A stretch of 35,556 nt of DNA from an uncultured Eubacterium sp. (GTDB lineage Bacteria > Bacillota > Clostridia > Lachnospirales > Lachnospiraceae): the NCBI GenBank assembly GCA_947089855.1, contig CAMUML010000043.1:1-35556 (forward strand), in the 5' to 3' direction. Below are positions 9,272 through 34,584 of this stretch, piece after piece. The notes beneath the pieces were generated by a model. It saw nothing but the letters and a program-made list of their open reading frames with translations. It searched no databases and was not told where the DNA came from. The stretch's first letter is position 1. Each line of letters opens with the position of its first letter. A program made the position numbers and the translations under genes.

Positions 9272-9451
9272 GTTACTTTACTATTCACAGCCAATTTGTT
9301 CTTGACAAATATTCTAAGTTATGAGGCTGTAAATAGTAACATTCGCAGGCTCATGGAAAGAATTTGCCTTGCAAATTGGAGCCTGCTCACTCCTGAATCA
9401 GCTTGGCAGCCACCTGGACAGCAGGGTGTTCAGGTGGCTGTGAATAGTAAC
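9272..9451 (-). repeat. GTTACTATTCAC structured element (175-bp form)
   Basis: It is the reverse complement of the copy at 23575-23749 with one substitution in the interior and a few disturbed bases at the left terminus (GTTACTTTACTATTC). The flanks GGCCGGTA (9264-9271) and GGCTGGTA (9452-9459) match at seven of eight bases, as expected for a target-site duplication. Its right end overlaps the 3' end of the kinase gene. Confidence 0.9.
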
Positions 9452-10443
9452 GGCTGGTAGCCTTCGGGCGAATAATGGACCACACTCGTACCAACCGTTT
9501 CAAATGCAAACGGTATATAAAGCAGGCCGCGCATTGCTTCCATAACTGCAGCTTGATGCTCCTCATCCACATAAAAAACAAAAAACCCACCTCCACCGGC
9601 ACCAAGCAGTTTTCCGCCCAATGCCCCAGCCCGGATCCCCCTTTGGTATACCTCATCTATCCCATCTGTACTGATGCCCGCACCGGTTTGCCGCTTCAAC
9701 TCCCACGCATAGCCAAGCAGCCTGCCAAATTCATCAAGGTTTCGTTCCTTATCAACCAAAATCGCCTCTGCTTCGTCAACAAGCTGCGCCATTTCCTGCA
9801 GCTGTGCCGTTTTCCCTGCCCAACCCTTTGCATTTTCCTTCTGCACATCGCAGCTGTATCGGGTAAACCCGGTAAAAAACATAAAAAGCCTGTCATTAAG
9901 CTGTTTCTTACGCTGCGGGGAAATAATGACCGGAAACACTTCATAACCGCCGTTATGAAAATTGATCCTGTTAAAACCACCATAAGATACTGCAATCGGA
10001 TCCTGCCACCCGCCAGCTTCCCCACACAATACACGTTCCAGATAAATGGACTCATCTGCCAGTTTCTTTTTATCTGCATACGTCCCTTTTAAACAATAAA
10101 ACCCATTTAACATGCCAACCGCAAAAGAACTGCTTGTCCCAAGCCCGCTCCTTGCAGGCAGGTCCGAATCATACGTCAGGCGCAGCTCGTGCATATCCAG
10201 CATCTGCATGGCATTGCGTATCAAAGGGTGTTCAATCTCGTTATATCCATTCACATACTCCATTTTGGAATAGGTAAGGTGCGTTTTATATGTAAAGAAA
10301 CGCGGCAAATGCCGAACCGTCACATAGCAATATTTGTCAAATGTTGTAGAAAGCACGGATCCGCCATACTCTTTAAAAAAATCCTCTATATCCGTCCCTC
10401 CGCCGAAAAAAGACATCCGAAACGGTGTCTTGGTAATTACCAA
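9430..10443 (-). CDS. hddA: D-glycero-D-manno-heptose 7-phosphate kinase (GHMP family), HddA-like
   Basis: A GHMP kinase of about 337 residues: ITKTPFRMSFFGGGTDI at the N-terminus, ATP-binding LPARSGLGTSSSFAVGML, and C-terminal GALGGKLLGAGGGGF. This set is typical of HddA, which phosphorylates the GmhA product at O1. I favour the TTG at 10443 with GGGAGGTGG upstream; a GTG lies at 10461. The last six codons and stop lie inside the mobile element at 9272-9451, so the natural C-terminus has been replaced by element-encoded residues LLFTAT. Confidence 0.88.
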   Translation of the reverse strand: MVITKTPFRMSFFGGGTDIEDFFKEYGGSVLSTTFDKYCYVTVRHLPRFFTYKTHLTYSKMEYVNGYNEIEHPLIRNAMQMLDMHELRLTYDSDLPARSGLGTSSSFAVGMLNGFYCLKGTYADKKKLADESIYLERVLCGEAGGWQDPIAVSYGGFNRINFHNGGYEVFPVIISPQRKKQLNDRLFMFFTGFTRYSCDVQKENAKGWAGKTAQLQEMAQLVDEAEAILVDKERNLDEFGRLLGYAWELKRQTGAGISTDGIDEVYQRGIRAGALGGKLLGAGGGGFFVFYVDEEHQAAVMEAMRGLLYIPFAFETVGTSVVHYSPEGYQPLLFTAT

Positions 10444-10494: not shown

Positions 10495-11046
10495 TTACCT
10501 CATAACCGGATGCCAAGTATCCTGTTTATAAGATAACGCCGATTTCCTTTTCCGGACCAGCCTGGCTGGATTTCCTGCATAAATACCTGACTTTCCGTAA
10601 ATCCCCCTCCGGACCAGCGACCTGGCTGAAAATACACAGCCATCTTCTATCACCGCTCCGCCCAAGACGATAGAATCCGCAAAAATAGCCACATGGTCGC
10701 CTATTTCAATCCGCTCCCCATGATACGCAAATATATCGTCATCTATCCGATGCCCTCCTGTAATTAATTTTGTATAAACCGCTATCGTCACATTTGAACC
10801 AATCGTTACCCCCCCCCGGCCATCCAGGAAACAATGTTCATTGACATACGTATGGTCCCCAATTACAATCCCACGCGGATAAACTACTGTAGTATCTTTT
10901 AAAATATAAGATCCTCTACCAATCTTCATCCCTTTGATCCGATAATACATTTTTCGGACTGTCCAAAATGGAATCTTGGCAGCAACCGAATTTGTGATAA
11001 AATAAGAAAGCCCAGAAAGGAACTCTGAAACAAATGCCAAAACCAT
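10495..11046 (-). CDS. Hexapeptide-repeat O-acetyltransferase (left-handed beta-helix)
   Basis: A 183-residue protein with an N-terminal hydrophobic/helical stretch, then hexapeptide repeats (GIVIGDHTYV, GGVTIGSNVTI, RIEIGDHVAI, GGAVIEDGCV) and the C-terminal IYAGNPARLVRKR signature of the CatB/LacA/WbbJ acetyltransferases. It probably acetylates a sugar of the cell-surface polymer using acetyl-CoA. The ATG at 11046 sits very close to the AGGGGG site, and a TTG at 11040 has better spacing. A G9 tract lies inside the frame at 10809-10817 and is currently in frame. Confidence 0.88.
   Translation of the reverse strand: MVLAFVSEFLSGLSYFITNSVAAKIPFWTVRKMYYRIKGMKIGRGSYILKDTTVVYPRGIVIGDHTYVNEHCFLDGRGGVTIGSNVTIAVYTKLITGGHRIDDDIFAYHGERIEIGDHVAIFADSIVLGGAVIEDGCVFSARSLVRRGIYGKSGIYAGNPARLVRKRKSALSYKQDTWHPVMR
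10809..10817 (-). repeat. G9 homopolymer tract inside the acetyltransferase gene
   Basis: Nine consecutive C on the plus strand give G9 on the coding strand, in the codons for Arg-Gly-Gly-Val. The frame is open at nine. Gain or loss of one base would truncate the enzyme within its beta-helix. Confidence 0.9.
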
Positions 11047-11108
11047 ACCCCCTGCCTATATTTCTTTACCTGCACCTTTTATTATTTTTTTATTTTTGAC
11101 TGTATTTT

Positions 11109-12200
11109 TTATACATTCTTTAAAGAAACTTCCTGCTTAAAATAAGCGGTTATTTGGTTTGCTACATGCGGATAGGTATAGTTTTCAAAATTACGGCCTT
11201 TCCATTCCTGTGTATGGTCCAGCAAAAAACAAATCGCTTTGGCCAAACTAGCCGGATCTTTCTTTTTTACAATAACCCCGCAGTTTGTATCACGGACAAT
11301 TTCCGGGATCCCTCCAACATCCGTAGCAACCACCGGTTTGCGGAAGGCCATAGCCGTAAATAAGACCCCGCTTTGTGTTGCAGAAATATACGGGAGGACG
11401 ACCACAGAACAGGAACGGAATAAATCTGCAAGCGCCTCGTTATCGATATATTCATTTATCACCGTCATATTTCTTGCATACTTTTCTTTTTTCAAAATGG
11501 CAGCTAACGAACTGCCCTGGCCAGCTATGATAAAATTAGCATCTGGGCAATGCCTTTTTACGGCCTCGGACGCCCGGATAAAATAAGCAATGCCTTTATA
11601 TTTTGAAATACGTCCAAAAAATAAAACCTTCGGCTGCCCCCCCCCGGCTGAAATATTGTATGTATGGCCCGGGCAAGAGCCACAACCATAGCCAAGATAA
11701 ATATCATGCATCCCCAAACTGGAATACCGCACTTTTTTTGAAGAAACAGCATACATTCTGCGGAAAATGGCAACGTCTTTTTTACTGTGTACCAAAATAT
11801 TGTCACAGCATCTTGCCATCAAAAACGCATTCAGCATTTTCATAAATTTCTTTTCCCCTAAATGTGGAATGGGGTCATGGATTTCTGCAACCTTATAAAA
11901 ATCATTGCATTTCCATAATGGTCCAAACAAAAATATACTGCCGTCTTGTATCATAAAAACGTCAGGCTTGCCTTGCCGTATTTTTTCGAATAATTTCCTA
12001 TAGTACAGGATCCTCTGGCGGACATCCCCCCTCGGCTTATGGATTTCATAAACGGCAATACGGCTGCTTATGGCATGCTTATAGCTTTGGTAACAGCTAT
12101 TGTTGTCTATATAAAGCTGTACCTCGTTTTGCCGTGCAAACCCATTTGCCAGCATAATGGTATGTTCGACATACCACATGCTTAACATGGCTATTTTCAT
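11109..12200 (-). CDS. Glycosyltransferase family 4-type
   Basis: A 363-residue GT-B fold protein. The N-terminal acceptor half is diverged (MKIAMLSMWYVEHTIMLANG). The C-terminal donor half has KVLFFGRISKYKGI, FIIAGQG, ADLFRSCSVVVLPY and KPVVATDVGGIPEI, the Glycos_transf_1 pattern. The ATG has an ATGGAG site upstream. It is separated from licD by a 140-base gap containing a palindromic repeat. Donor and acceptor are unknown. A G9 tract at 11637-11645 encodes Gly-Gly-Gly just before the donor domain and is in frame. Confidence 0.88.
   Translation of the reverse strand: MKIAMLSMWYVEHTIMLANGFARQNEVQLYIDNNSCYQSYKHAISSRIAVYEIHKPRGDVRQRILYYRKLFEKIRQGKPDVFMIQDGSIFLFGPLWKCNDFYKVAEIHDPIPHLGEKKFMKMLNAFLMARCCDNILVHSKKDVAIFRRMYAVSSKKVRYSSLGMHDIYLGYGCGSCPGHTYNISAGGGQPKVLFFGRISKYKGIAYFIRASEAVKRHCPDANFIIAGQGSSLAAILKKEKYARNMTVINEYIDNEALADLFRSCSVVVLPYISATQSGVLFTAMAFRKPVVATDVGGIPEIVRDTNCGVIVKKKDPASLAKAICFLLDHTQEWKGRNFENYTYPHVANQITAYFKQEVSLKNV
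11637..11645 (-). repeat. G9 homopolymer tract inside the GT4 gene
   Basis: Nine C on the plus strand; three glycine codons in the coding frame (AGGGQ), at the linker before the donor-binding half. The frame is open at nine. Confidence 0.9.
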
Positions 12201-12221
12201 TCTATTTCTCCATTTCTTTTT

Positions 12222-12321
12222 ATACTGCTGGCTGCCAGGATGTACAGTAATGTAACCAAGGAAGTGCTTGGCTGGTGGCCTGCAGTCGGGTTATACTGCA
12301 AATTAACTGGTGTGCAGTATA
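12222..12321 (+). repeat. TATACT-ended palindromic repeat, about 100 bp
   Basis: Near-full-length match of 54-154, with the same ATACTGC start, GCAGTCGGGTTATACTG interior and GCAGTATA end. It lies between the licD-like gene and the next glycosyltransferase. It may act as a processing or attenuation hairpin in the operon transcript. Confidence 0.75.
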
Positions 12322-12340
12322 AATTGTGCATCTGCCCCAA

Positions 12341-13148
12341 TTACAGCCGATAGGCTACATTGTCATGGCGTTGCCTGTCTTTTACTGGAGGCAGCCGCAT
12401 AAAATCACCATATAAATTGGTCAAATAATATTCCGGCATCCGGAATGCCATAAATTCCCTATCCCGAAATGTTACCTGATTGCAAAACTCATAGACAACC
12501 TTTGGCATAATTTCCCTGGACCCATAACCGGCGACAATATTCGCTGCATATTTACTGGAATCAAAACTATATTTTGTTGCTGCACGGTCTACAATACGGG
12601 CAAGGTCAAATTTGAAAAACCCCATTTTATCAATAAACTGCCAGAACACCCTTCGTACCCCTTTGGAATCCTTTGCCTTATATTTTGCTATCCTGGCCGC
12701 ATACAAAATTAAAAACCTGCGTTTCACCTTTTTGCGATGGTTATCTTGGCTTGCCGGATACCCCCCCCCCAGGCAATCCATCTATCGGAAAAATATCAAC
12801 ATATACATGCCTGCTAATTTTCTTATCTTGGGGCGATTCAATCAGCTTCGTCCTCATATCATACACTTTGCTGTATGCGTTAAAATTGTTTTTATCATTA
12901 TATGGCGATGAAATACGGTAATACTTTGGTAACTGCGACTGAAGCTTTAAAAATTTTTCATAATCAGTACGCGGCATCCCAATATCAATATCATCGTCCC
13001 ACGGAATAAAACCTTTATGCCGGACCGCACCTAACAAAGATCCTCCGCATAAACTATAACGTAAATGGTTGCGTTCACATACGTCGGCAATACAGCATAA
13101 AATACCATATTCTATATCCTGCATTTCTAAAAGAGACAATTTAACCAT
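12341..13148 (-). pseudogene. licD: LicD-family transferase, out of frame at a G10 tract (phase OFF)
   Basis: The first 135 residues carry the LicD nucleotidyltransferase motif: LCGGSLLGAVRHKGFIPWDD followed by DIDIGMPR. At the G10 tract (12761-12770) the frame is lost and ends soon after. The remaining LicD sequence (YPASQDNHRKK to YRL) continues in the next frame to 12341. Removing one G gives an uninterrupted protein of about 268 residues, normal for LicD. LicD enzymes attach phosphocholine or a related phospho-substituent to surface glycans. GGAGG precedes the ATG at 13148. I read this as a switched-off gene rather than a decayed one. Confidence 0.9.
12761..12770 (-). repeat. G10 homopolymer tract inside the licD-like gene
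   Basis: Ten C on the plus strand. Nine (or twelve) would keep the LicD frame; ten breaks it. It is the only one of the four cluster tracts not at nine. Confidence 0.9.
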
Positions 13149-13164
13149 CCCTTACCTCCATCCG

Positions 13165-14547
13165 TTATCCAACCTTCCCTATAATATTTTTTAAATAACA
13201 GGCTGCTTCTGCAATTTTGCTTTTATTGAAAATGGCCCATAGCAAGAAAACTACTACAGAGATTGCCACCATCTCCGCTTTGCCCAGAAACCGGACTGCT
13301 ATCAAGACAACAAACATTTCTATTACAATGCAGCCGACTACTTTTTTATTTATATCCAGTTTCACTTCGGATGCTGCAAACCAATAGCGCAGCAATGACA
13401 TGATTACATAACCTGCACACAAAGCTATGCTTAATGCATAAATACCAAACCTACGGATAAATATGGATGCTATACATACATTAACGGCCGCCCCAGCGAT
13501 AGTAGAAATTAATATCTGATCTGTTTTTTTATATACAGCATTCATCGTACCTAAGATCCCAGATATTCCAGAAAAAAACGCTACATAAACAATGAATGGT
13601 ATATATTTCGCTGCATCTTTATATTGGTTTCCACCGATAACTGGCGACAGCCAATATAGTACAAATATAAAAATTGGAATCCCCAGCCCAACTAATTGAA
13701 AAAAAGAATTCAGATAATATGAATATACCTCATTTTTGTTTTTATTGCCTGCCACCAAAAACGCCTGCTCCTGCCATGCCAATGAATATATCGAAATTAA
13801 AACGGATAAAACCGCTGCATACTTAGAAACGTAAGCATAATAGCCACTAACCGTTTCCCCGCAGGTTCGAATCAAAACGTTTTTATTATAAATATCAAAA
13901 AATAAAAAGGAAAAAGCATTCAGCATCAACGGCATACAATAGGTAACCATTTCTTTTACCGCCACATGGCATCTGGTTTTAAAAATTGCCGCATAATAAC
14001 ATTTCGTTTTCCATTCTACATACAAAACAGCAACTGCATATCCGATACATTGTGATAAAATAAGATATGCAATCCCTTTTTTCAAGAAAACAGCAAATAA
14101 GATACTAAGCCCGCAAGAAACCACCGTACTAGCCGTCCCCGCTACCACATAACTCCAATTTTTTTCATACCCCCGGCAAATACTGTTTGAAATGGAATAG
14201 AACAAGTAGGTTAGTCCATAAATCAGGGTTAAAACAGGGTATTTTATATCCATAATCTTTCCAAGGACAAAAAACGCTACCAAATAAAAACAAAAAAACA
14301 TTGGCAGCAGCCTCAAAAATGTATTTACCGGCGACGCCTTATCCTTTTCTTGAAAAATATACCGCAAAATGCCTGACCAAATTTCCATAAATGAAATGGA
14401 AATAACCATTTGCGTGTTCTGGATGGCAACATCATAATAACCATAATCGGCAGCCGGAAAAACCCTTGTATAAACAGGAATCATAAAAAAAACTAAAATT
14501 TTGGAAAAGAACGTACCTAAACCATATATTACTATTCTTTTTAACAT
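13165..14547 (-). CDS. wzx: Wzx-type polysaccharide flippase (MATE/MOP family)
   Basis: A protein of about 460 residues with roughly 12-14 hydrophobic segments. It opens with MLKRIVIYGLGTFFSKILVF and has the typical IPVYTRVFPAADYGYYDVA loop of O-antigen/EPS flippases. It exports the lipid-linked repeat unit across the membrane. The ATG at 14547 follows AGGTGG; the open frame to 14655 runs into the polymerase gene and is not used. It lies 20 bases after wzy and 16 before licD. Confidence 0.9.
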   Translation of the reverse strand: MLKRIVIYGLGTFFSKILVFFMIPVYTRVFPAADYGYYDVAIQNTQMVISISFMEIWSGILRYIFQEKDKASPVNTFLRLLPMFFCFYLVAFFVLGKIMDIKYPVLTLIYGLTYLFYSISNSICRGYEKNWSYVVAGTASTVVSCGLSILFAVFLKKGIAYLILSQCIGYAVAVLYVEWKTKCYYAAIFKTRCHVAVKEMVTYCMPLMLNAFSFLFFDIYNKNVLIRTCGETVSGYYAYVSKYAAVLSVLISIYSLAWQEQAFLVAGNKNKNEVYSYYLNSFFQLVGLGIPIFIFVLYWLSPVIGGNQYKDAAKYIPFIVYVAFFSGISGILGTMNAVYKKTDQILISTIAGAAVNVCIASIFIRRFGIYALSIALCAGYVIMSLLRYWFAASEVKLDINKKVVGCIVIEMFVVLIAVRFLGKAEMVAISVVVFLLWAIFNKSKIAEAACYLKNIIGKVG

Positions 14548-14567
14548 ACAACCACCTGCTGCTTCCT

Positions 14568-15656
14568 TTACCAATAAATCGGTACCAGTCCATACCCTGC
14601 TGCCGAAACCGTAAGAAACCGGTACAAAACCCATAGATTCAATATACCAATACACACACTATCCGCAGCATACAGCACCCTCTTTCCACATGCATTGCAA
14701 TGCCCACGGATATAGCCGCATGCTATGTAATTGGCAATATTAAAATAATCCAAAAACCGGTACCCAATGCTGTTATAGAACTGGATTGGTATAATCAAAA
14801 AAGAAAACAGCAGCAATAAAATCACATGCTTAAGCTTCATATGGTTCCTGTATTCCCCGATTTTGATAGCTGTCATAAAAATCAGGAATAGCAGCAGCAT
14901 CCGCACCAAGTTGCTTAATAGCGCAATGCTTCCAGACTGCCTGGTAGATAAATAAAATGCTATTTTAGAGCTGATTTCCCCCATCCTCGAAAGCACAGCC
15001 GGTAAAAACAGTACAAGCACAACAACAGGCAAGCTATACAGCAAAAGCGCCTGATACAATTTTTTTGGTTTTTCCATAACAGCTAAAAAAATGAAAAAGC
15101 CAATGATAATCAATGCAGAAAAATGTACAAAAAACGCGGCAATTGCCAAGGCATAGGCTTTTTTTCTATCTCCTTCAAAATACAATAAAACAGCTAGCCA
15201 GCACATGGCATAGGCAAAAGAGATCCTCATCAGGCAACATCCCAATACAAGGTTCGTCGCTAAAAAGAAATAGTCAAAATACCGGTTCCCCCTGCACCTG
15301 TAGGTTTCTGTTACTTTCACTGCAAAAAAATACATCAGCGCAAAGTAAAGGACTCTTACGGCTGTATAGGGCAGGCTGAACCTACTGCAAATCCAAAAAA
15401 AGCCAAAAAATAACACTTCTATTTGCGCAATCTTTTCCAAGTACCCTGCTAATGGCAGCCCCTGTGCCAAACCATACATCCGCTGGTATTCCACGGCATC
15501 TGAATTTTGGACAAAAACCACCCGCCTCATGCCGCAAAATGCAATTACGAGAAACAGCCCGGCAAATGCAAATATCCGGTCATTTTTATACCTCCCGTGT
15601 AAAAATAACAAGCCGGATTCTAACAATACAAAAATTAACGTTAAAATGTAGTCCAC
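14568..15656 (-). CDS. wzy: EpsG/Wzy-type polysaccharide polymerase
   Basis: A 362-residue polytopic membrane protein with about ten helices. SDAVEYQRMYG after the third helix and the VHFSALIIIGFF region fit the EpsG family of repeat-unit polymerases. It probably joins repeat units on the outer face of the membrane. The start is GTG at 15656, inside the last codons of the upstream glycosyltransferase (16-base overlap). Polymerases are highly diverged, so the call rests on topology and context. Confidence 0.82.
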   Translation of the reverse strand: MDYILTLIFVLLESGLLFLHGRYKNDRIFAFAGLFLVIAFCGMRRVVFVQNSDAVEYQRMYGLAQGLPLAGYLEKIAQIEVLFFGFFWICSRFSLPYTAVRVLYFALMYFFAVKVTETYRCRGNRYFDYFFLATNLVLGCCLMRISFAYAMCWLAVLLYFEGDRKKAYALAIAAFFVHFSALIIIGFFIFLAVMEKPKKLYQALLLYSLPVVVLVLFLPAVLSRMGEISSKIAFYLSTRQSGSIALLSNLVRMLLLFLIFMTAIKIGEYRNHMKLKHVILLLLFSFLIIPIQFYNSIGYRFLDYFNIANYIACGYIRGHCNACGKRVLYAADSVCIGILNLWVLYRFLTVSAAGYGLVPIYW

Positions 15657-16774
15657 TTTGATTCTGCCTTCCGTTGTACGTAATGTTTCAAAAAATCAAC
15701 ATGCACCTTTGCCATATGCTCAATCGTATATTTGCGTACCGATTGCAAACACGCCTGCTGTACTGTCCCATCACACCCATGCTTTAAATAATAGGTAATT
15801 GCATCTGCCAGCTGGCTGGCATTGCCAGCCTCCACCAGCCTGCCATTGGCCCCATCTTGTATCAGTTCCTTTCCTGCAACACATTGTGTGGTCGTTACCA
15901 CTGGCAGGCCATTGGCTAACGCTTCGTTGACCACCAGCCCCCAAATATCATATCTGGTCGGAAAGGCAAATACATCTGCGCACTGATAATAGTATTTCAG
16001 TTCCTTTGCAGCCTGAAATTCCTTAAATACTACATTGCCCCCTGCCAGCGCCTTCATTTTGGCGTAATACCCCGTATCCGGATGCGGCCCAACCACCAGG
16101 CACTGGATATGGGCATCTACTTTTTTTAAAGCCCGAAGCAATACATCTACCCCTTTGCGCGGTATGACCTGCCCCACAAATAAAACCGTCTTTTTATCTT
16201 CCAAACCCAGACGTTTGCGTATGGCCTTTTTTTGCTGGTTAGAAACCGGGCTTTTTAACAGGTCTTGCTCCCTTAATGATGTAAAATAATAACGGAAAAT
16301 ATCTTTTTTCTGCACGCCATAATGCTGGAGAAACCGGTCCGATTCCCCGCTTGGGCTAAAATATCTGCCGGCCCCTTTGATCAAAAATGTTTTCAGGCCA
16401 TAAAGCAGCCTGCTTTCTGGTTTTAAAATCCCCCCGTCGATTTCGAGGACAAAAGGGATATGAAAAAGCATCATTTTCAAATAGGCAGCCAATTCTGTGC
16501 GGTAGGAATAATTCGTCGCAAATATCACATCATACTTGTTTTTTTTGATAAATTTGAAAATAGATAAATCCAAACGCCTTTCTTCAATATAGCCATCTTT
16601 TAGAAATATGGGCCGGAAGTTTTGGCACTTCCCCTTCCCTTTCCAGTCAAATACAATCCCCCTTGCCCGCTTTGCTTCAAAAAGGACGGTTAACTCTACA
16701 TATTTACCCAGTTCTTCAAAAAATGCGGCCCGGTAAGGGGATGGGATGTTACTGATAAACAATACCTTTTTCAT
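15641..16774 (-). CDS. Glycosyltransferase family 4
   Basis: A 377-residue GT-B protein. N-terminal MKKVLFISNIPSPYRAAFFE; donor domain with VLFVGQVIPRKGVDVLLRAL, VVGPHPDTGYY, and the EX7E-like DIWGLVVNEALANGLPVV. It is probably a sugar transferase in repeat-unit assembly on undecaprenyl phosphate at the cytoplasmic face. It overlaps the upstream gene by four bases and wzy by 16, so it is tightly coupled. Specificity is unknown. Confidence 0.9.
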   Translation of the reverse strand: MKKVLFISNIPSPYRAAFFEELGKYVELTVLFEAKRARGIVFDWKGKGKCQNFRPIFLKDGYIEERRLDLSIFKFIKKNKYDVIFATNYSYRTELAAYLKMMLFHIPFVLEIDGGILKPESRLLYGLKTFLIKGAGRYFSPSGESDRFLQHYGVQKKDIFRYYFTSLREQDLLKSPVSNQQKKAIRKRLGLEDKKTVLFVGQVIPRKGVDVLLRALKKVDAHIQCLVVGPHPDTGYYAKMKALAGGNVVFKEFQAAKELKYYYQCADVFAFPTRYDIWGLVVNEALANGLPVVTTTQCVAGKELIQDGANGRLVEAGNASQLADAITYYLKHGCDGTVQQACLQSVRKYTIEHMAKVHVDFLKHYVQRKAESKWTTF

Positions 16775-17895
16775 AACCGTCCAAACACCATTTCCCTGTA
16801 TTTTTTCTGCATTTTTCCCGCCTCACGTGTAATATCATACCCTGCTTCTTCCACTGCTTTCCTGGCATCCAGGTTACGCCCCATAACCGCTTTCCCTATG
16901 GCTGCATCCGCCCACAGGCCAATGGCCCCAGGCCCAATATCCAGAAAGGTATTTGTATCAAGAATATCCACTTCGTCTGTAACATTAGAAGAAAAAATAC
17001 ACGGCAGCCCGTTGCACTGCGCTTCCACTGCACAAACCGGCAGGCCCTCAAAGATGGACGGCATTACAAATACATCAAACGCCGAATAATATTCCTCCAC
17101 ATTTGGTACAGAACCAGTAAAAACCACAAAATCCTCCAGCCCATGTGCGGACACATACTGCCTGAACGTGCTGCTTAAACTGCCATCCCCTACTACCATT
17201 AGCACCATTGGCTTTTTTTGCCTGGCCAGCTTTCCCATCATTGCCAAAAGGAACCGATGGTTTTTCCTCTGTTCCAGCCTGCCTACTACGCCAATAACCA
17301 TCCGGTTTTGTATCTGGTATTGTTTCCTGATTTTTTCCCTGGACTTTGGGGAAAACAGGTATCTTTCTATTTCTATAGCGTTACGCATGGTACAAAACTT
17401 CCTCTTGCCACCATACAGCCAGTCCCCCGCCGCTTTTGAACACGCCCACAGGTGCGTTGCGTACTTTGGAATCATAAGCTTTTGAAGGTCATTCACAACG
17501 GTCCGTATCCTGCCTGCGTCTGTAAGCGTATAATCTGTATTATGGCTATGCGAAATCCTGGCAACGGCCCCGCATTTTTTTGCGATCCGCAAGATATGGG
17601 CATTCCCGCTGTCTGCATGTGCGTGTACAATATCATAATTGCCTTGTTTGATAATGCGTTCCATCCTGCTTACATTCTGCATATACGCCTGGCTTTTGGC
17701 TGGAATATGATAAACCCTGCTGCCCATTTTTAATATTTCATGATCCCTTGGCCCATAACTGCTGCCCTGCCCAAGAAAATCAATCTTTACTGCATCAGCG
17801 TCCATATGCCTGGCATAATTTAACATTACAGAGGATATGCCGCCATAATCCATACATCCCCCATTGACATACAATACCCTGGCTGCCCTGCCCAT
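16771..17895 (-). CDS. Glycosyltransferase family 4 (EpsF-like)
   Basis: A 374-residue GT-B protein. The N-terminal GGCMDYGGISSVMLNYARHM and the HAHADSGN segment resemble EpsF-type enzymes. The donor domain has VIGVVGRLEQRKNHRFLL, VVGDG and MPSIFEGLPVCAVEAQ. AGGAG lies eight bases before the ATG. Its stop overlaps the next gene by four bases. Acceptor and donor are unknown. Confidence 0.9.
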   Translation of the reverse strand: MGRAARVLYVNGGCMDYGGISSVMLNYARHMDADAVKIDFLGQGSSYGPRDHEILKMGSRVYHIPAKSQAYMQNVSRMERIIKQGNYDIVHAHADSGNAHILRIAKKCGAVARISHSHNTDYTLTDAGRIRTVVNDLQKLMIPKYATHLWACSKAAGDWLYGGKRKFCTMRNAIEIERYLFSPKSREKIRKQYQIQNRMVIGVVGRLEQRKNHRFLLAMMGKLARQKKPMVLMVVGDGSLSSTFRQYVSAHGLEDFVVFTGSVPNVEEYYSAFDVFVMPSIFEGLPVCAVEAQCNGLPCIFSSNVTDEVDILDTNTFLDIGPGAIGLWADAAIGKAVMGRNLDARKAVEEAGYDITREAGKMQKKYREMVFGRL

Positions 17896-17989
17896 AACCG
17901 ATTCTCCTTATAAACAATATACACCGATCGATCAATATCACACGGTGAACCATGCAAAGCACAAGTACAATTTCTGGCCGGATGGAGTA

Positions 17990-19639
17990 CTAGCGCTGGA
18001 ATACTAAATTCCTTAAACCTTCCACTGCTTGAAAAAGCCCCCTGCAATCGCCCTTTTTGACTGCTGCCCCATAGATCCTGGCACTTTCCGCACTCCCTCC
18101 GGTATGGTAAGTTACGACGGGCGTGCCGCACGCAACCGCTTCAAGGTTCGTGGTCGGATAATTATCCTCATAAGTAGGGTTCAAATAAACATCCGCCACC
18201 GCATACAGCTGCCGTAGCGTTTCTACACTGCCTGTCCTCCCAAAAGCTTCGACCTGTTTTGGCAGCTGCCGCTTTTGGCGCCTGCTTACCCCGACAAGCA
18301 CCACTTTGCAGCTGCCGCCTGCCAGCCTGCTAATTTTAATCATATCTGCCAGCCCTTTCCTTGGCTCCCATAGGGCAGAAACGCCGAGGATTACTTTTTT
18401 GCCTGCCAGGCCAAGTCGGTGCCGCAACGCGAAAAACCCTTCCTGCGCGTCCACCCCCCCCCGGCCATACAAAGCCAGGTATTCTGCTACGGCATCTTTT
18501 TTATCTTTTGCCATACCCACACCCTTGCCTGCCTTTTTTTTGGCGGGCACTGTTTTAATTGCTTCCAGCACCGCTTGCAGGTCCCCTTTTTCCACCACCT
18601 GCCCCATACCCACAGGGACGCTTTCGGGGCTCCCGCCAGTATGGTAGGTAATGACCGGCGTCCCGCAGGCCAATGCCTCCAGGTTTACCGAAGGATAGTT
18701 ATCGCAGTAAGTCAGGTTTAAAAATAGGTCCGCGGCGCTGTAGATCATCGCAAGCTCTTTGGTACTGTTTGTCGGGCCAATCCCCAGCACTTTCTTTGGC
18801 AGGCGTTTTTGCTGCCCTTTGGTAACGCCTACAAGGACAATCTGGTAGCGGCTATCCAGCATTGCCGACAGCCGGATAAAGTCCAAAAGCCCTTTCTGGC
18901 GGTTCCAGCTGCTTGCAACCCCCAATAGGACCGTCTTTTTTTCCAGGCTGTAAAACCGCCTAAAATCATTTTCCAATGGATAAAACTGCGAAGTATCGAC
19001 GCCATTATGGATGACCGACGTCCGGTAGCCCGACAGGAAGGACTGCCCCACCAGCCTTGCCAGCCATACGGACGGAGTGGCCAGCTCCAGGCCCGGTACG
19101 CCGGTAAACAGCCTCCGCTTCCTGTCCCAATTCCGGCTGCTATGGTCTACCAGGCTTTTGGGGTATGCCGCTGTCTGCGGGCAGCGGCCGCACCCCCGCT
19201 TCCATTTCTGGCATCCCACAGCATCGCAGTATACGCTGTGCCCGGTAAATGCCCAGCAGTCATGCAGCGTCCAGACCACTTTTTTACGGCTGGTTTTCAG
19301 ATACCGGAACAATACCTCTACATTTATATAATACCCGTGGATATTATGCAGGTGGATAATATCCGGGCCATACGTTTCTACCCATGCAATAAAACGCTCT
19401 GTGGCCCGCCTGCTGCCAAAACCGGATGCATCCGCCAGCCTTGCCTTGCATCCATGCAGGGCAACGTCTAAGCCGCTGCCGATCCGGACCGCATATTTTT
19501 GGTATTCCTTTGGCACCTTCCCCCGCCCATATGCGATTTTAACGCTATGCCCTGCCTGCTCTAGCCCCTTCGCGAGGTCCGTGCAGATCCGTCCTGTACT
19601 GCGGATACCGCAGACAACATTGATAATCAAAACTTTCAT
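17990..19639 (-). CDS. Glycosyltransferase with duplicated C-terminal donor domain
   Basis: About 549 residues. The N-terminal half is a normal GT4 acceptor domain (MKVLIINVVCGIRSTGRICT, IIHLHNIHGYYIN, VVWTLHDCWAFTGH). The donor domain then appears twice. Copy 1 has LGVASSWNRQKGLLDFI, VLVGVTKGQQKRLPKK and EALACGTPVITYHTGGSPES. Copy 2 (from about residue 395) has LGVSALWEPRKGLADMI, VLVGVSRRQKRQLPKQ and EAVACGTPVVTYHTGGSAES. A G9 tract (18454-18462) lies in the linker between them, around residue 393. Ordinary family members end after one copy. The ATG at 19639 is favoured; the longer frame runs into the upstream gene. The function of copy 2 is unknown. Confidence 0.88.
   Translation of the reverse strand: MKVLIINVVCGIRSTGRICTDLAKGLEQAGHSVKIAYGRGKVPKEYQKYAVRIGSGLDVALHGCKARLADASGFGSRRATERFIAWVETYGPDIIHLHNIHGYYINVEVLFRYLKTSRKKVVWTLHDCWAFTGHSVYCDAVGCQKWKRGCGRCPQTAAYPKSLVDHSSRNWDRKRRLFTGVPGLELATPSVWLARLVGQSFLSGYRTSVIHNGVDTSQFYPLENDFRRFYSLEKKTVLLGVASSWNRQKGLLDFIRLSAMLDSRYQIVLVGVTKGQQKRLPKKVLGIGPTNSTKELAMIYSAADLFLNLTYCDNYPSVNLEALACGTPVITYHTGGSPESVPVGMGQVVEKGDLQAVLEAIKTVPAKKKAGKGVGMAKDKKDAVAEYLALYGRGGVDAQEGFFALRHRLGLAGKKVILGVSALWEPRKGLADMIKISRLAGGSCKVVLVGVSRRQKRQLPKQVEAFGRTGSVETLRQLYAVADVYLNPTYEDNYPTTNLEAVACGTPVVTYHTGGSAESARIYGAAVKKGDCRGLFQAVEGLRNLVFQR
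18454..18462 (-). repeat. G9 homopolymer tract in the linker of the double-domain glycosyltransferase
   Basis: Nine C on the plus strand, in the codons for Arg-Gly-Gly-Val, in frame. A slip would leave the first donor domain intact and remove only the second. Confidence 0.9.
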
Positions 19640-19658
19640 CCTACCCAGCCCTATGTTT

Positions 19659-20957
19659 CTATAGGTTCCCCTTTCCATGCCCCTTTGGCCTGATATCCAG
19701 CGCCTGTGCAAAATACCTTTCCATTTCATCCATAAGCCCTGCCTTTTGGAACCAGGCCTTGTAATACCGGAAGCTGTTCTGGCCCATTTCGGCAAGTTCT
19801 GCTGGATGGCCCATCATCCATTCCACGGCATCTGCCAACGCCTTGGCATCGCCAATCCCCACGCAGATACCGCACGCAGCCTTGCCAACCAGCCGTTTTG
19901 TTTCCCCGTTTGCGGCCGCAATAACAGGCATTCCACAAGCCATGTATGATGGAAGCTTTGCGGGCACCGTTTTTGCCAGCAGCTGCGTATCCCGCAATGA
20001 TAAAAATGCGGCATCGCAAAAAGCCAGTATTTGCGGCACAGCCTGCGGTTTCTGCCGCGGAACCATAAGAAACTTATCCTCCACTCCCCGCTTACGTATC
20101 TCCTCTTCCAGCTGCGTCCGGTAACGGCCGTCGCCCACAATAACAAACCGGGCATTCACGTTTTTTAATAACCCCGCTGCCTCCGGCAGTATATCCAGCC
20201 CCTGTGCAGCCCCTATATTTCCAGTAAATGCAATCTTAAACGCATGGCCTTTGGAAACCTGATGCAAATATGGCCGCCGCCCTGCCTGTTTTAAAATCCA
20301 GCTTTTCTGCAACGGCCGATAAAACGCTTCCGCATACTGGGGCCAGTAATGTACTTTCCCCCTTGGTACCACGCCCCTATGGGCTATGGACTCTACAAAT
20401 GCATGGGAAGGTGCAAAGATCTGATCCGAATTTTTATAGATATAGTCCACCATTTTATGGATCGGCCAAATGACAAATGGATTTGTAACCCCTGCAACTG
20501 CCTCTACATTCTCCGGCCATAGGTCCTGCACATATAAAAAATGCGGCACATGATGCTTGTTGCGGTACCAGCACCCAATCAAAGCCTGGGTCATAGGCGA
20601 TACTTCAAATGTAAACACCAAATCTGCCTGGATACGGCCCGCCAGGTTCCAAAAAAATCCGGATACGGCAAACGATATATAATTAAATGCCAAACCAACG
20701 CAAGATGCCCCGCGTGGGAGCAGCGGAATACGGACCACCTCCACGCCGCGCCAAAATTCATGCCTGCGGCGCCGATAGCCATAGCCCTTAAAAAATTTCC
20801 CGCCCGGATAGTTAGGAATCCCTGTCAGTACCGTAACCTGGTACCCCCGCTTCACCCATTCCGCTGCAATATCATTAATCCGGAAGTTTTCCGGATAAAA
20901 ATATTGGGAAACTACCAGGATATGCGGTTTTAATGCGTCTGCACCTTTGCCTGCCAT
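19659..20957 (-). CDS. Glycosyltransferase family 4, WbuB/WcaI-like
   Basis: About 432 residues. HILVVSQYFYPENFRINDIA, LTGIPNYPGGKFFKGY and FLYVQDLWPENVEAV are typical of the WbuB/WcaI group, whose members include N-acetyl-L-fucosamine transferases. The donor domain has IAFTGNIGAAQGLDIL and MACGMPVIAAANGET. It is a plausible user of the CapE/CapF sugar nucleotide, though this is inference. The ATG at 20957 follows GGGGAGG at five bases; a longer frame to 20990 exists. It lies 19 bases before the double-domain transferase. Confidence 0.88.
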   Translation of the reverse strand: MAGKGADALKPHILVVSQYFYPENFRINDIAAEWVKRGYQVTVLTGIPNYPGGKFFKGYGYRRRRHEFWRGVEVVRIPLLPRGASCVGLAFNYISFAVSGFFWNLAGRIQADLVFTFEVSPMTQALIGCWYRNKHHVPHFLYVQDLWPENVEAVAGVTNPFVIWPIHKMVDYIYKNSDQIFAPSHAFVESIAHRGVVPRGKVHYWPQYAEAFYRPLQKSWILKQAGRRPYLHQVSKGHAFKIAFTGNIGAAQGLDILPEAAGLLKNVNARFVIVGDGRYRTQLEEEIRKRGVEDKFLMVPRQKPQAVPQILAFCDAAFLSLRDTQLLAKTVPAKLPSYMACGMPVIAAANGETKRLVGKAACGICVGIGDAKALADAVEWMMGHPAELAEMGQNSFRYYKAWFQKAGLMDEMERYFAQALDIRPKGHGKGNL

Positions 20958-21042
20958 ACGTTCCTCCCCTTCTGCCTCCCGCTGGCCCAATTACATGCCA
21001 CCGATGCCCCTCGCCATCCTCCAAAGCGGCCGCTGCGGGGTA

Positions 21043-32748: not shown

Positions 32749-34584
32749 ATGCATCTGACTATGTACCAAAAATATGACCAGGACTGCCAGGCACAATTAA
32801 ATGGCATCGCCGCCAGCTGCCGCCGGATTTCTTTTTGGCGGGGCATTTTGTTCCTGGCCGCTGCCATCTTCGCTTATCTGGCTTATAAAACGATGGACGG
32901 GATATTTTGCATACCGGCTGCAGCAGCCCTGGCCGTTTTTGTGCTTTTGATCCAAAAACACCAATCCTATAAAAAAACGCAACGTTTCCTCCACGGCTTC
33001 CAGGCTTCCGCAAAGGATTATATGGCACGGTCCGACGGCCAGTGGCAGTGTTTTCCAAACAACGGTGCGCAGTATCTGCCTGAAAAAAGCGGAATAGAAG
33101 CAGATCTGGACTTATTTGGCCCAAACTCGCTGTACCAATATATTTGCACCGCTTCTTCGGTCTATGGGCAGGACTGCCTCGCCCGCTGGCTAAAGGATCC
33201 TGGCTGGGATATAGCGGAAATTCAAAACCGCCAGCAGGCAACCGCAGAACTTGCCAAAAAAACAGCGTTTACGGCCAATTTTGAAGCGGCAGCCAGGCAA
33301 TTGCGGGATATACCATATGAAGACGCCCAAAAATCACTCGAACATTTTTTTGCTATTTTAGAAGATCCGAACCGGAATACTGGCCAAGGCCGCAGCGGTG
33401 CCAAAACCGCCCTGCATACAGCCGGGCATCTCTTAATCTGGCTGTTTCCTGCACTTACCCTGGCCTGCTTATGTTTTGTTATATTGGGCCTTTTTGCCCA
33501 AGCCGCTGTTTCTGGTTTTATGCTGCTGGCAACCCTACAGCTGTCTGCCGCATTTATCTGTTATTCCAAAAACAACCAGATACTGGCCCCCATTTATCAA
33601 ATGGAAAAAACCATTGCCCCATACCGCCAATTAATCGGGTATATGGAACAGGAGGCATTCCAAAGCCCCTATTTACAGAAGCTGCGCCAAAGCCTTGGCC
33701 AGGAAGCAAATACTGCCTTGCAAGAACTGGAAGCCCTTGCAGGCTCAGTAGTGCAGCGCCGCAACCTGTACGCTTTTATCCTTTACAACAGCCTGTTTTT
33801 ACATGATTTTCATTGTATGGAACGCTACGCAGCTTGGAAAGCTAAATATAAACGCCAAGTACGTACCTGGCTTATGGCAATTGGAGAAATCGAGGCGCTT
33901 ATCAGCCTAGGCGTAATTGCCCATACCAAAGAAACCCATACGATACCGGTTATTGAACACGCAAGACAGCCAAAATTACGCGCTGCCTGCCTAAAGCACC
34001 CGCTGCTACCAGAGCCACAGGCAGTGGGAAATGATTTTACATGCACCAGCCGCACCTGTATTATCACCGGCTCCAATATGTCTGGGAAAACTACTTTTCT
34101 GCGCAGTATCGGCGTAAACCTGGCCCTGGCATATGCCGGGGGATTCTGCACCGCCCAAAGCTTAACCGTTTCACGGATGGAGCTGTGTACTTCCATGCGG
34201 ATCGAAGACAATGTCAGTGCCGGCATTTCCACTTTCTATGCCGAATTGCTGCGGATCAAACACATCATTGAATGCAGCAAAGGCCACAAACCGATGATCG
34301 CGCTGATTGATGAGATTTATAAAGGTACAAATTCCAAAGACCGCATTGCTGCTGCGAAGGAAACCATCCGCAAGCTTTCGCGCCCTTCGGTCCTTACATT
34401 TTTAACCACACATGATTTTGAATTGTGCAGCCTGGAAAATGAAGAAGCGGCAAATGCTACGAACTACTATTTTACAGAACATTATAATGGACATGAGATT
34501 TTATTTGACTATAAAATCCACAAAGGCCAGTGTACAACTACAAACGCACAATACTTGCTGCGGATGGCAGGTATCCTACCATAG
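32749..34584 (+). CDS. Membrane-anchored MutS-like ATPase
   Basis: A 611-residue protein. Two hydrophobic helices occur at about 28-62 and another pair at about 225-265, which true mismatch-repair MutS lacks. The C-terminal domain is a MutS domain V ATPase: ITGSNMSGKTTFLRSIG (Walker A near 441-449), SMRIEDNVSAGISTFYAEL (signature), MIALIDEIYKGTNSKDR (Walker B) and LTTHD. The N-terminal mismatch-recognition domain is absent. A mismatch-repair role is therefore doubtful. AAGGAG precedes the ATG. The next gene follows after 22 bases. Confidence 0.87.
   Translation: MHLTMYQKYDQDCQAQLNGIAASCRRISFWRGILFLAAAIFAYLAYKTMDGIFCIPAAAALAVFVLLIQKHQSYKKTQRFLHGFQASAKDYMARSDGQWQCFPNNGAQYLPEKSGIEADLDLFGPNSLYQYICTASSVYGQDCLARWLKDPGWDIAEIQNRQQATAELAKKTAFTANFEAAARQLRDIPYEDAQKSLEHFFAILEDPNRNTGQGRSGAKTALHTAGHLLIWLFPALTLACLCFVILGLFAQAAVSGFMLLATLQLSAAFICYSKNNQILAPIYQMEKTIAPYRQLIGYMEQEAFQSPYLQKLRQSLGQEANTALQELEALAGSVVQRRNLYAFILYNSLFLHDFHCMERYAAWKAKYKRQVRTWLMAIGEIEALISLGVIAHTKETHTIPVIEHARQPKLRAACLKHPLLPEPQAVGNDFTCTSRTCIITGSNMSGKTTFLRSIGVNLALAYAGGFCTAQSLTVSRMELCTSMRIEDNVSAGISTFYAELLRIKHIIECSKGHKPMIALIDEIYKGTNSKDRIAAAKETIRKLSRPSVLTFLTTHDFELCSLENEEAANATNYYFTEHYNGHEILFDYKIHKGQCTTTNAQYLLRMAGILP

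Follow-up and report, generated by a model that had tools for sequence, protein, structure and literature searches.

Poly-G tracts in glycan-modifying genes and elsewhere in the genome of an uncultured Eubacterium species: candidate contingency loci of a phase-variation system

The window analysed here, i.e., the whole stretch of 35,556 nucleotides (nt), is contig C43 of the draft genome of an uncultured Eubacterium sp. of the Lachnospiraceae (assembly GCA_947089855.1, here G000). It contains a polysaccharide gene cluster on the minus strand, in which four genes are crossed by a long run of G (read as a C-run on the plus strand of the window). A tract of nine G (G9) at 10809-10817 was located by run scan and frame scoring in frame inside a gene for a hexapeptide (LbH) acyltransferase of 183 amino acids (aa; 10495-11046; Pfam Hexapep, 1.2e-11). 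A further G9 tract (11637-11645), also in frame, separates the N-terminal from the C-terminal Pfam domain of a GT4-type glycosyltransferase of 363 aa (11109-12200; Glyco_trans_1_4, 2e-30), and a third one (18454-18462), again in frame, lies in the linker between the two C-domains of a double-domain glycosyltransferase of 562 aa (17990-19678), which matches Glyco_trans_1_4 in two stretches (Pfam scan of a 601-aa version with an earlier start). The remaining tract, a G10 (12761-12770), is placed exactly where the frame of licD changes: the upstream half of this gene (12741-13148) corresponds to positions 1-103 of the LicD profile (3.1e-38), and the downstream half (12341-12781), offset by one, to positions 128-227 in another frame (2.2e-6).

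An initial annotation of the window had listed these four tracts with lengths of 9, 9, 10, and 9 and had regarded licD as broken by the G10 run, and both statements agree with the present results. Its observation that no other C- or G-run of nine or more occurs in the window can even be extended, as the four tracts are all G/C runs of at least seven, followed by three C-runs of six. In 300 dinucleotide shuffles of the window, on average 0.61 runs of at least nine and 6.7 of at least seven were obtained, as compared to four and four observed, such that runs of at least nine are in excess, whereas runs of seven and eight are absent; shuffling of the whole window is, however, a poor null model, because G000 avoids runs of six to eight. 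The confinement of the tracts to a single cluster, also pointed out in that annotation, holds within the window only, since the genome contains 97 tracts of at least nine G.

Of these 97 tracts in the draft of G000 (4.08 Mb), 79 consist of exactly nine G and 18 of at least ten; together with only 13 G8 and 8 G7 runs, this gives a length distribution that peaks sharply at nine. The same distribution becomes apparent in a sample of 690 kb, composed of the window, the stretches around tracts, and nine control stretches of G000: the number of runs declines from 2915 at length 4 over 614 (5), 36 (6), and 3 (7) to 2 (8), rises to 79 at length 9, and falls again to 9 (10), 3 (11), 2 (12), and 2 (14), with single runs of 35 and 49. 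The nine control stretches (175 kb) contain no G/C run of at least seven. Codon shuffling in 552 genes yielded 7.9 runs of at least nine, compared to 46 observed. G/C tracts of at least seven are hence commoner than chance in G000. Five runs of this genome resemble sequencing junk (two G14, the G35, the G49, and a G10 beside a G14). Series of very long G-runs, situated for the most part at contig ends, were also noticed at loci L172 and L161 of G000, L340 of G007, and L255 of G010 (G001 to G012 being congeners). Very long or serial poly-G of this kind was regarded as junk, and interior tracts were kept; due to such junk, the counts of tracts of at least nine G for G003 (93) and G010 (116) are inflated.

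The reading frames on either side of each tract were assessed with a hexamer coding model in two settings. The first classifier was applied to the 95 distinct contexts of runs of at least nine G in G000 (two of the 97 tracts with duplicate surroundings being counted once) and to two G8 runs; the stricter one covered runs of 7-13, included a near-tract test, and set aside out-of-frame tracts with an ATG just after the run. According to the first classifier, 40 in-gene tracts lie on the sense and two on the antisense strand. The frame is the same on both sides in 32 of the 40 sense tracts, all of them G9, and differs in eight (four G9, two G10, and two G12); among G9 in-gene tracts, 32/36 are thus in frame. 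The stricter classifier recovered 35 in-gene tracts (three of them G7 runs), 29 of which are in frame, including 28 of 31 G9 tracts (binomial p 6e-11 against 1/3). The tract of the GT4-type gene at 11637-11645 is in-gene by the first classifier, whereas the stricter one does not count it as such, and it is then recorded as 'before'.

Concerning the genes affected, 24 of the 40 in-gene tracts on the sense strand are found in genes of glycan-tailoring type, according to our own tally of Pfam matches: hexapeptide transferases (3), Acyl_transf_3 (4), MBOAT (2), methyltransferases (5), TupA ATP-grasp (3), GT4/GT8/GT11/GT-D-like glycosyltransferases (5), LicD (1), and a pyruvyl transferase (1). The other 16 comprise four genes without Pfam match, five that are ambiguous or unscanned, and seven of other families (GH26 with carbohydrate-binding modules, radical SAM/SPASM, DUF6625, FrhB-like, weak solute-binding, AAA-ATPase-like, and DUF4910). 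In other species, 11 of the 52 gene pieces containing a tract or terminating at one match Methyltransf_11, and GT2 (4), GT4-type, hexapeptide, LicD, TupA, and FdtA are among the matches of the rest. For 131 of 136 control genes, the transferase families typical of the tracts are missing among the 25 families listed of 248, except for two GlmU-type hexapeptide matches, where control families of one or two members may not show among those 25; radical SAM has two members among the control genes. Surface structures or their modifiers are mostly the targets of the in-gene tracts.

The picture is mixed for tracts in front of start codons, where regulators and an integrase are found as well. Ten scanned tracts of G000 end 0-11 nt upstream of a start codon (ATG in nine cases, GTG in one; this set does not include additional GTG/TTG candidates). 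The genes behind them encode a flagellin, TadZ, an AraC regulator, a response regulator, an IspD-like cytidylyltransferase, a protein with Ig-like domain, an integrase, a BlaI-type repressor, a DUF3021 protein, and one protein without match. At the flagellin gene, a G10 run (L168:3502-3511) is situated four bases ahead of the start codon and might represent a translational switch. The hexamer GGACGC/GCGTCC occurs no more than 80 bp away from 11 of the 39 other non-coding tracts, as compared to a density of 0.38 per kb. An interspersed intergenic repeat of this type, common to the genus, was seen to end beside poly-G, often at contig starts (L345-L352 in G003; L191, L303, L310, L318, and L330), and four places in G000 (L117:4807, L121:3501, L125:3502, and L135:3501) carry a similar intergenic repeat around a central run, which is exactly nine G in each. 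Judged by placement, namely inside genes, directly before start codons, and in a licD split into two frames, the tracts are predicted to be sites at which a change of one base alters expression.

Differences in length at the same site were found between two overlapping contig ends and among species. The end of contig C23 and the start of contig C99 agree in the 43 bases that precede a run and in the 45 that follow it, and differ only in the run itself, which is G9 in one and G10 in the other. The gene concerned is PglD-like (Pfam PglD_N), and G9 joins its upstream (231 nt) and downstream (444 nt) open frames, whereas G10 does not; most simply, both states would be present in the sample. Among species, the linker run of the double-domain glycosyltransferase occupies the same place in three of them: it is G9 and in frame in G000, G7 and in frame in G008 (L031/L207/L237), and G8 and out of frame in G006 (L034/L208). 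When the flanks of 200 tracts were compared all against all, two further cross-species sites emerged that are flush on both sides: one in a methyltransferase, where G000 has an in-frame G9 and G008 an out-of-frame G8, and one in a radical-SAM protein, again with G9 in frame and G8 not. Tract length thus varies among genes that appear homologous by these alignments. Pairs that match on one flank and differ in length include G10/G8, G9/G8, and G9/G7. For the acetyltransferase and the GT4-type gene of the window, orthologs within the genus are only distant, so that their tracts could not be compared save for one flank: downstream of the acetyltransferase tract, the alignment is almost flush with a G9 tract of G005 (28% over 100 aa), whereas the upstream flank is unalignable, and the best match of the GT4-type gene (11109-12200) in the 12 congeners is partial and does not exceed 36%. 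Out-of-frame tracts are frequent in the sister species by the stricter classifier (22/37 in G005, 14/25 in G006, and 9/20 in G008).

The double-domain glycosyltransferase shares 56-57% identity with its counterpart in G008 and 59% with that in G006. A second C-domain at such spacing was found in only three of 80 relatives, counted by a distance rule of our own. A frameshift in the linker leaves the first domain complete, and the OFF state is therefore probably a one-domain enzyme rather than a null; given that only 3/80 relatives show a second C-domain at this spacing, truncation would yield a product similar to the one-domain form that is usual among them. Slippage in the linker would thus probably toggle between a two-domain and a one-domain enzyme. 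Five consecutive genes including this transferase have kept their order in G006, where, further along, licD carries a G9 run and is out of frame. The other genes of the cluster in the window, all on the minus strand, are a GHMP-kinase-family gene (9430-10443; GHMP_kinases_N/C), a flippase-like polysaccharide biosynthesis protein (13165-14655; Polysacc_synt, 1.2e-11), an EpsG-family, polymerase-like protein (14568-15656; EpsG, 2.3e-17; 44% ortholog in L034), a glycosyltransferase (15641-16774) assigned without Pfam scan and with a 57% ortholog in L034, and two GT4-type glycosyltransferases, one at 16771-17895 (Glycos_transf_1, 1.7e-24) and one at 19659-20990 (Glycos_transf_1, 1.9e-22; 53-55% orthologs in L034 and L031).

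The number of tracts of at least nine G differs widely among the 12 congeners (7, 63, 93, 16, 64, 47, 37, 3, 34, 116, 15, and 4). It is 0-3 in eleven of 12 other genera of the family and eight in the remaining one, and 0-3 in thirteen of 16 genomes from other families of the order, with 19, 10, and 8 in the other three. Relatives of the double-domain transferase led to 16 genomes, two of which are, by size and counts, G006 and G008 again; ten of the others contain 0-6 and four contain 26-52 tracts each, namely G042 (L032), G048 (Bacterium D16-56; L039), G051 (L082), and G056 (L110). Poly-G phasomes may, judging from these four genomes, be wider in the Clostridia.

The length that keeps a gene in frame is not the same in all species. 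Grouped by the residue class that is in frame (nine, seven/ten, eight/eleven), the tracts number 30, 3, and 2 in G000, 23, 9, and 5 in G005, 12, 10, and 3 in G006, and 0, 15, and 5 in G008 (chi-square p 4e-7, with tracts that are not independent and with stretches chosen mostly around G8 sites in G008 and around runs of at least nine in G005 and G006). These classes track the common lengths in the same stretches, i.e., nine in G000, nine to ten in G005, nine to eleven in G006, and seven to eight in G008; genes with an in-frame length far from the common one may have decayed and escaped the count. The proposal of the initial annotation that nine is the shared ON length therefore applies to most in-gene tracts of G000 (32/36 and 28/31 of the G9 tracts), but not to G008, where 8 of the 11 in-frame tracts have a length of seven, nor to G006, which is mixed.

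The short runs of G008 (77 G7, 24 G8, and 3 of at least nine) coincide with the fact that it is the sole congener with neither a MutS1 nor a MutL match over the cut-off in a profile search (its loci being L031, L237, and L256-L270). G004, in which runs are also short (23 G7, 14 G8, 16 of at least nine), has mutS in two pieces (L273), with a weak transposase-like open reading frame between them (DDE_5, 22.2 bits; Pfam cut-off 27), and mutL in two frames. A link between loss of repair and short tracts is only suggestive, because runs are short in G001 too (38 G7, 15 G8, 7 of at least nine), where both mutS and mutL were found; moreover, the two genes are neighbours in G000, and a single missing contig could explain their lack in G008. 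Outside the genus, G013 (74% complete) and G026 (69%) are under the MutS1 cut-off, G026 also under that for MutL. Loss of mismatch repair as a general cause of the tracts was rejected, as G000 possesses mutS and mutL. The window itself encodes on its plus strand (32749-34584) a protein of 611 aa with MutS domain V (3.7e-25) and a weak MutS domain III, which is far under the MutS1 cut-off (86.5 vs 641.7 bits).

Considering the tracts, their positions, and their frames, we regard it as highly probable that the four tracts of the window belong, as contingency loci, to a poly-G phase-variation system that extends over the genome and acts on surface glycans. Slippage of DNA polymerase at runs of about nine G would add or remove one base; within a coding run, this would shift the gene's downstream half into or out of frame, whereas just upstream of a start codon, it would probably alter the strength or the spacing of the ribosome site. 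Acyl-, glycosyl-, LicD-type, methyl-, and pyruvyltransferases could each be switched stochastically and reversibly in this way, such that cells of one clone would display different surface glycans, with possible effects on interactions with host and phages. The initial annotation had proposed poly-G phase variation of surface-glycan genes of the Campylobacter type, which is supported here, although pre-start tracts (flagellin, TadZ, regulators) and intergenic tracts belong to it as well. Its switch of 16 states likewise describes one cluster only and, with tracts distributed over the genome, is too narrow, the four tracts being part of about forty in-gene switches and of 97 tracts genome-wide.

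Several observations weigh against this interpretation. G000 has both mutS and mutL, neither of them interrupted by an internal stop, and the lengths of its tracts are narrower than in Campylobacter, 79 of 97 being exactly nine, which could mean slow switching. Only 42/95 distinct contexts of at least nine G lie in genes, compared to 77% of tracts in Campylobacter (available parts of PMC6321876), and the 7.9 runs expected under codon shuffling imply that coding composition explains some of them. The classes depend on the hexamer score, with different counts in the two settings, and these assemblies clearly contain some spurious poly-G (G35 and G49 as well as runs repeated at the ends of contigs). 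The draft of the focal genome is fragmented (101 contigs, with 89.7% completeness) and the single one of its species compared here, and the comparison of lengths within the strain consists of a single contig-end pair, C23/C99, which could be the result of slippage during polymerase chain reaction (PCR), library preparation, or sequencing. Some pairs matching on one flank are of equal length (G9/G9 twice, G11/G11, and G10/G10), and out-of-frame genes could be assembly errors or decaying genes.

Among the alternatives, it is unlikely, though the least so, that the tracts are static homopolymers without adaptive switching, with G9 as a mutational resting length held in frame by ordinary selection and out-of-frame copies such as licD as pseudogenes. 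The uniform lengths in the focal genome, the in-frame position of most G9 in-gene tracts, and the dominance of nine also among the runs not classed as in-gene (39/55) would be in accordance with this explanation; it leaves unexplained, however, why runs of seven and eight are rarer than runs of nine and why genes of one functional class are affected. Furthermore, both halves of the out-of-frame genes are still coding, three tract sites persist across species at about 30-57% protein identity while their lengths differ, and the C23/C99 overlap combines G9 and G10. Very improbable is an origin by sequencing or assembly artefacts, i.e., poly-G produced by the two-colour chemistry of Illumina sequencing or a wrong base call in the G10 of licD: contigs of several congeners do end in junk poly-G, the focal assembly contains the runs of 35 and 49, and the length of ten in licD is known from the assembly alone, but the four tracts are located inside a contig of 35 kb and in coding sequence, homologous genes in other assemblies carry tracts at the same place, and a bias for sense strand and gene class would not be expected from junk. 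We assign an equally small probability to transcriptional slippage or programmed ribosomal frameshifting, by which one DNA length would give both products without mutation. Long homopolymers can in general cause such slippage, yet length differences from species to species with changes of frame, together with the length mode, fit slippage at the DNA level.

Going beyond phase variation in the focal species, a genus-wide poly-G phasome is conceivable in which each species has its own resting length (possibly governed by the state of its mismatch repair), genes have been adjusted such that this length is in frame, and the linker tract acts as a switch between two domains and one; we consider this wider proposal possible but rather doubtful. 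The in-frame resting length would then be nine in the species of the window, seven in G008, and a mixture in G006, and the linker switch would change the structure of the glycan rather than turn it OFF.

Phase variation of the lic type concerns licD/licA genes of Haemophilus and Neisseria, and the classic lic1 switch is based on tetranucleotide repeats; the LicD-family gene of the window is likewise a candidate slippage target, whereas its tract is a mononucleotide run of G inside licD. Closest in organization is the phasome of Campylobacter, as far as described in the available parts of the respective papers: its poly-G/C tracts are of length nine in 53% and ten in 26% of cases, with a median of 20 tracts in draft C. 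jejuni genomes (PMC6321876, PhasomeIt), and a mixed G8/G9 tract is reported for cgtB of C. jejuni (PMC6437147). Both systems share mostly sense-strand poly-G in surface-modifying genes, a mode of nine, tens of tracts per genome, and ON/OFF states. There are also differences: the genus studied here belongs to the Clostridia, G000 has mutS and mutL, and a smaller share of its tracts lies in genes; furthermore, ten tracts directly precede start codons, others are situated at intergenic repeats, and common lengths differ among congeners. For gut bacteria, the accessible text on Bifidobacterium breve describes a replication-slippage ON/OFF switch of sortase pili, similarly a surface structure of a commensal, but limited to two pilus clusters as compared to the genome-wide set in glycan genes found here (PMC9187656); the phase-variable glycan loci and invertible promoters of gut bacteria treated in the available portion of PMC11868660 resemble the present case in being phase-variable surface glycans of commensals, whereas they depend on DNA inversion by recombinases and not on slippage of tract length.

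Among the open-licence papers listed (titles and beginnings of abstracts), none reports phase variation by poly-G for Lachnospiraceae or any other Clostridia; one paper on C. difficile concerns DNA inversion, and no Clostridia case was met in the available part of a survey of frame transitions in 1106 genomes (PMC3711429). The mechanism is already known, and the lineage and the scale are new as far as this literature shows. The genus is probably from the gut and, to judge by the names of its relatives, probably commensal, and some ninety poly-G tracts forming a phasome in such Clostridia would speak against the restriction drawn in the 2025 review PMC11868660, as worded in its accessible text. 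The 13 genomes, with tract loads between 3 and 116 (some of these counts being raised by junk at contig ends) and with missing or interrupted mismatch-repair genes in two of them, constitute a natural experiment. Strain-level metagenomics that is blind to poly-G tracts will misread broken genes, and glycan heterogeneity in such bacteria would affect their recognition by antibodies and phages.

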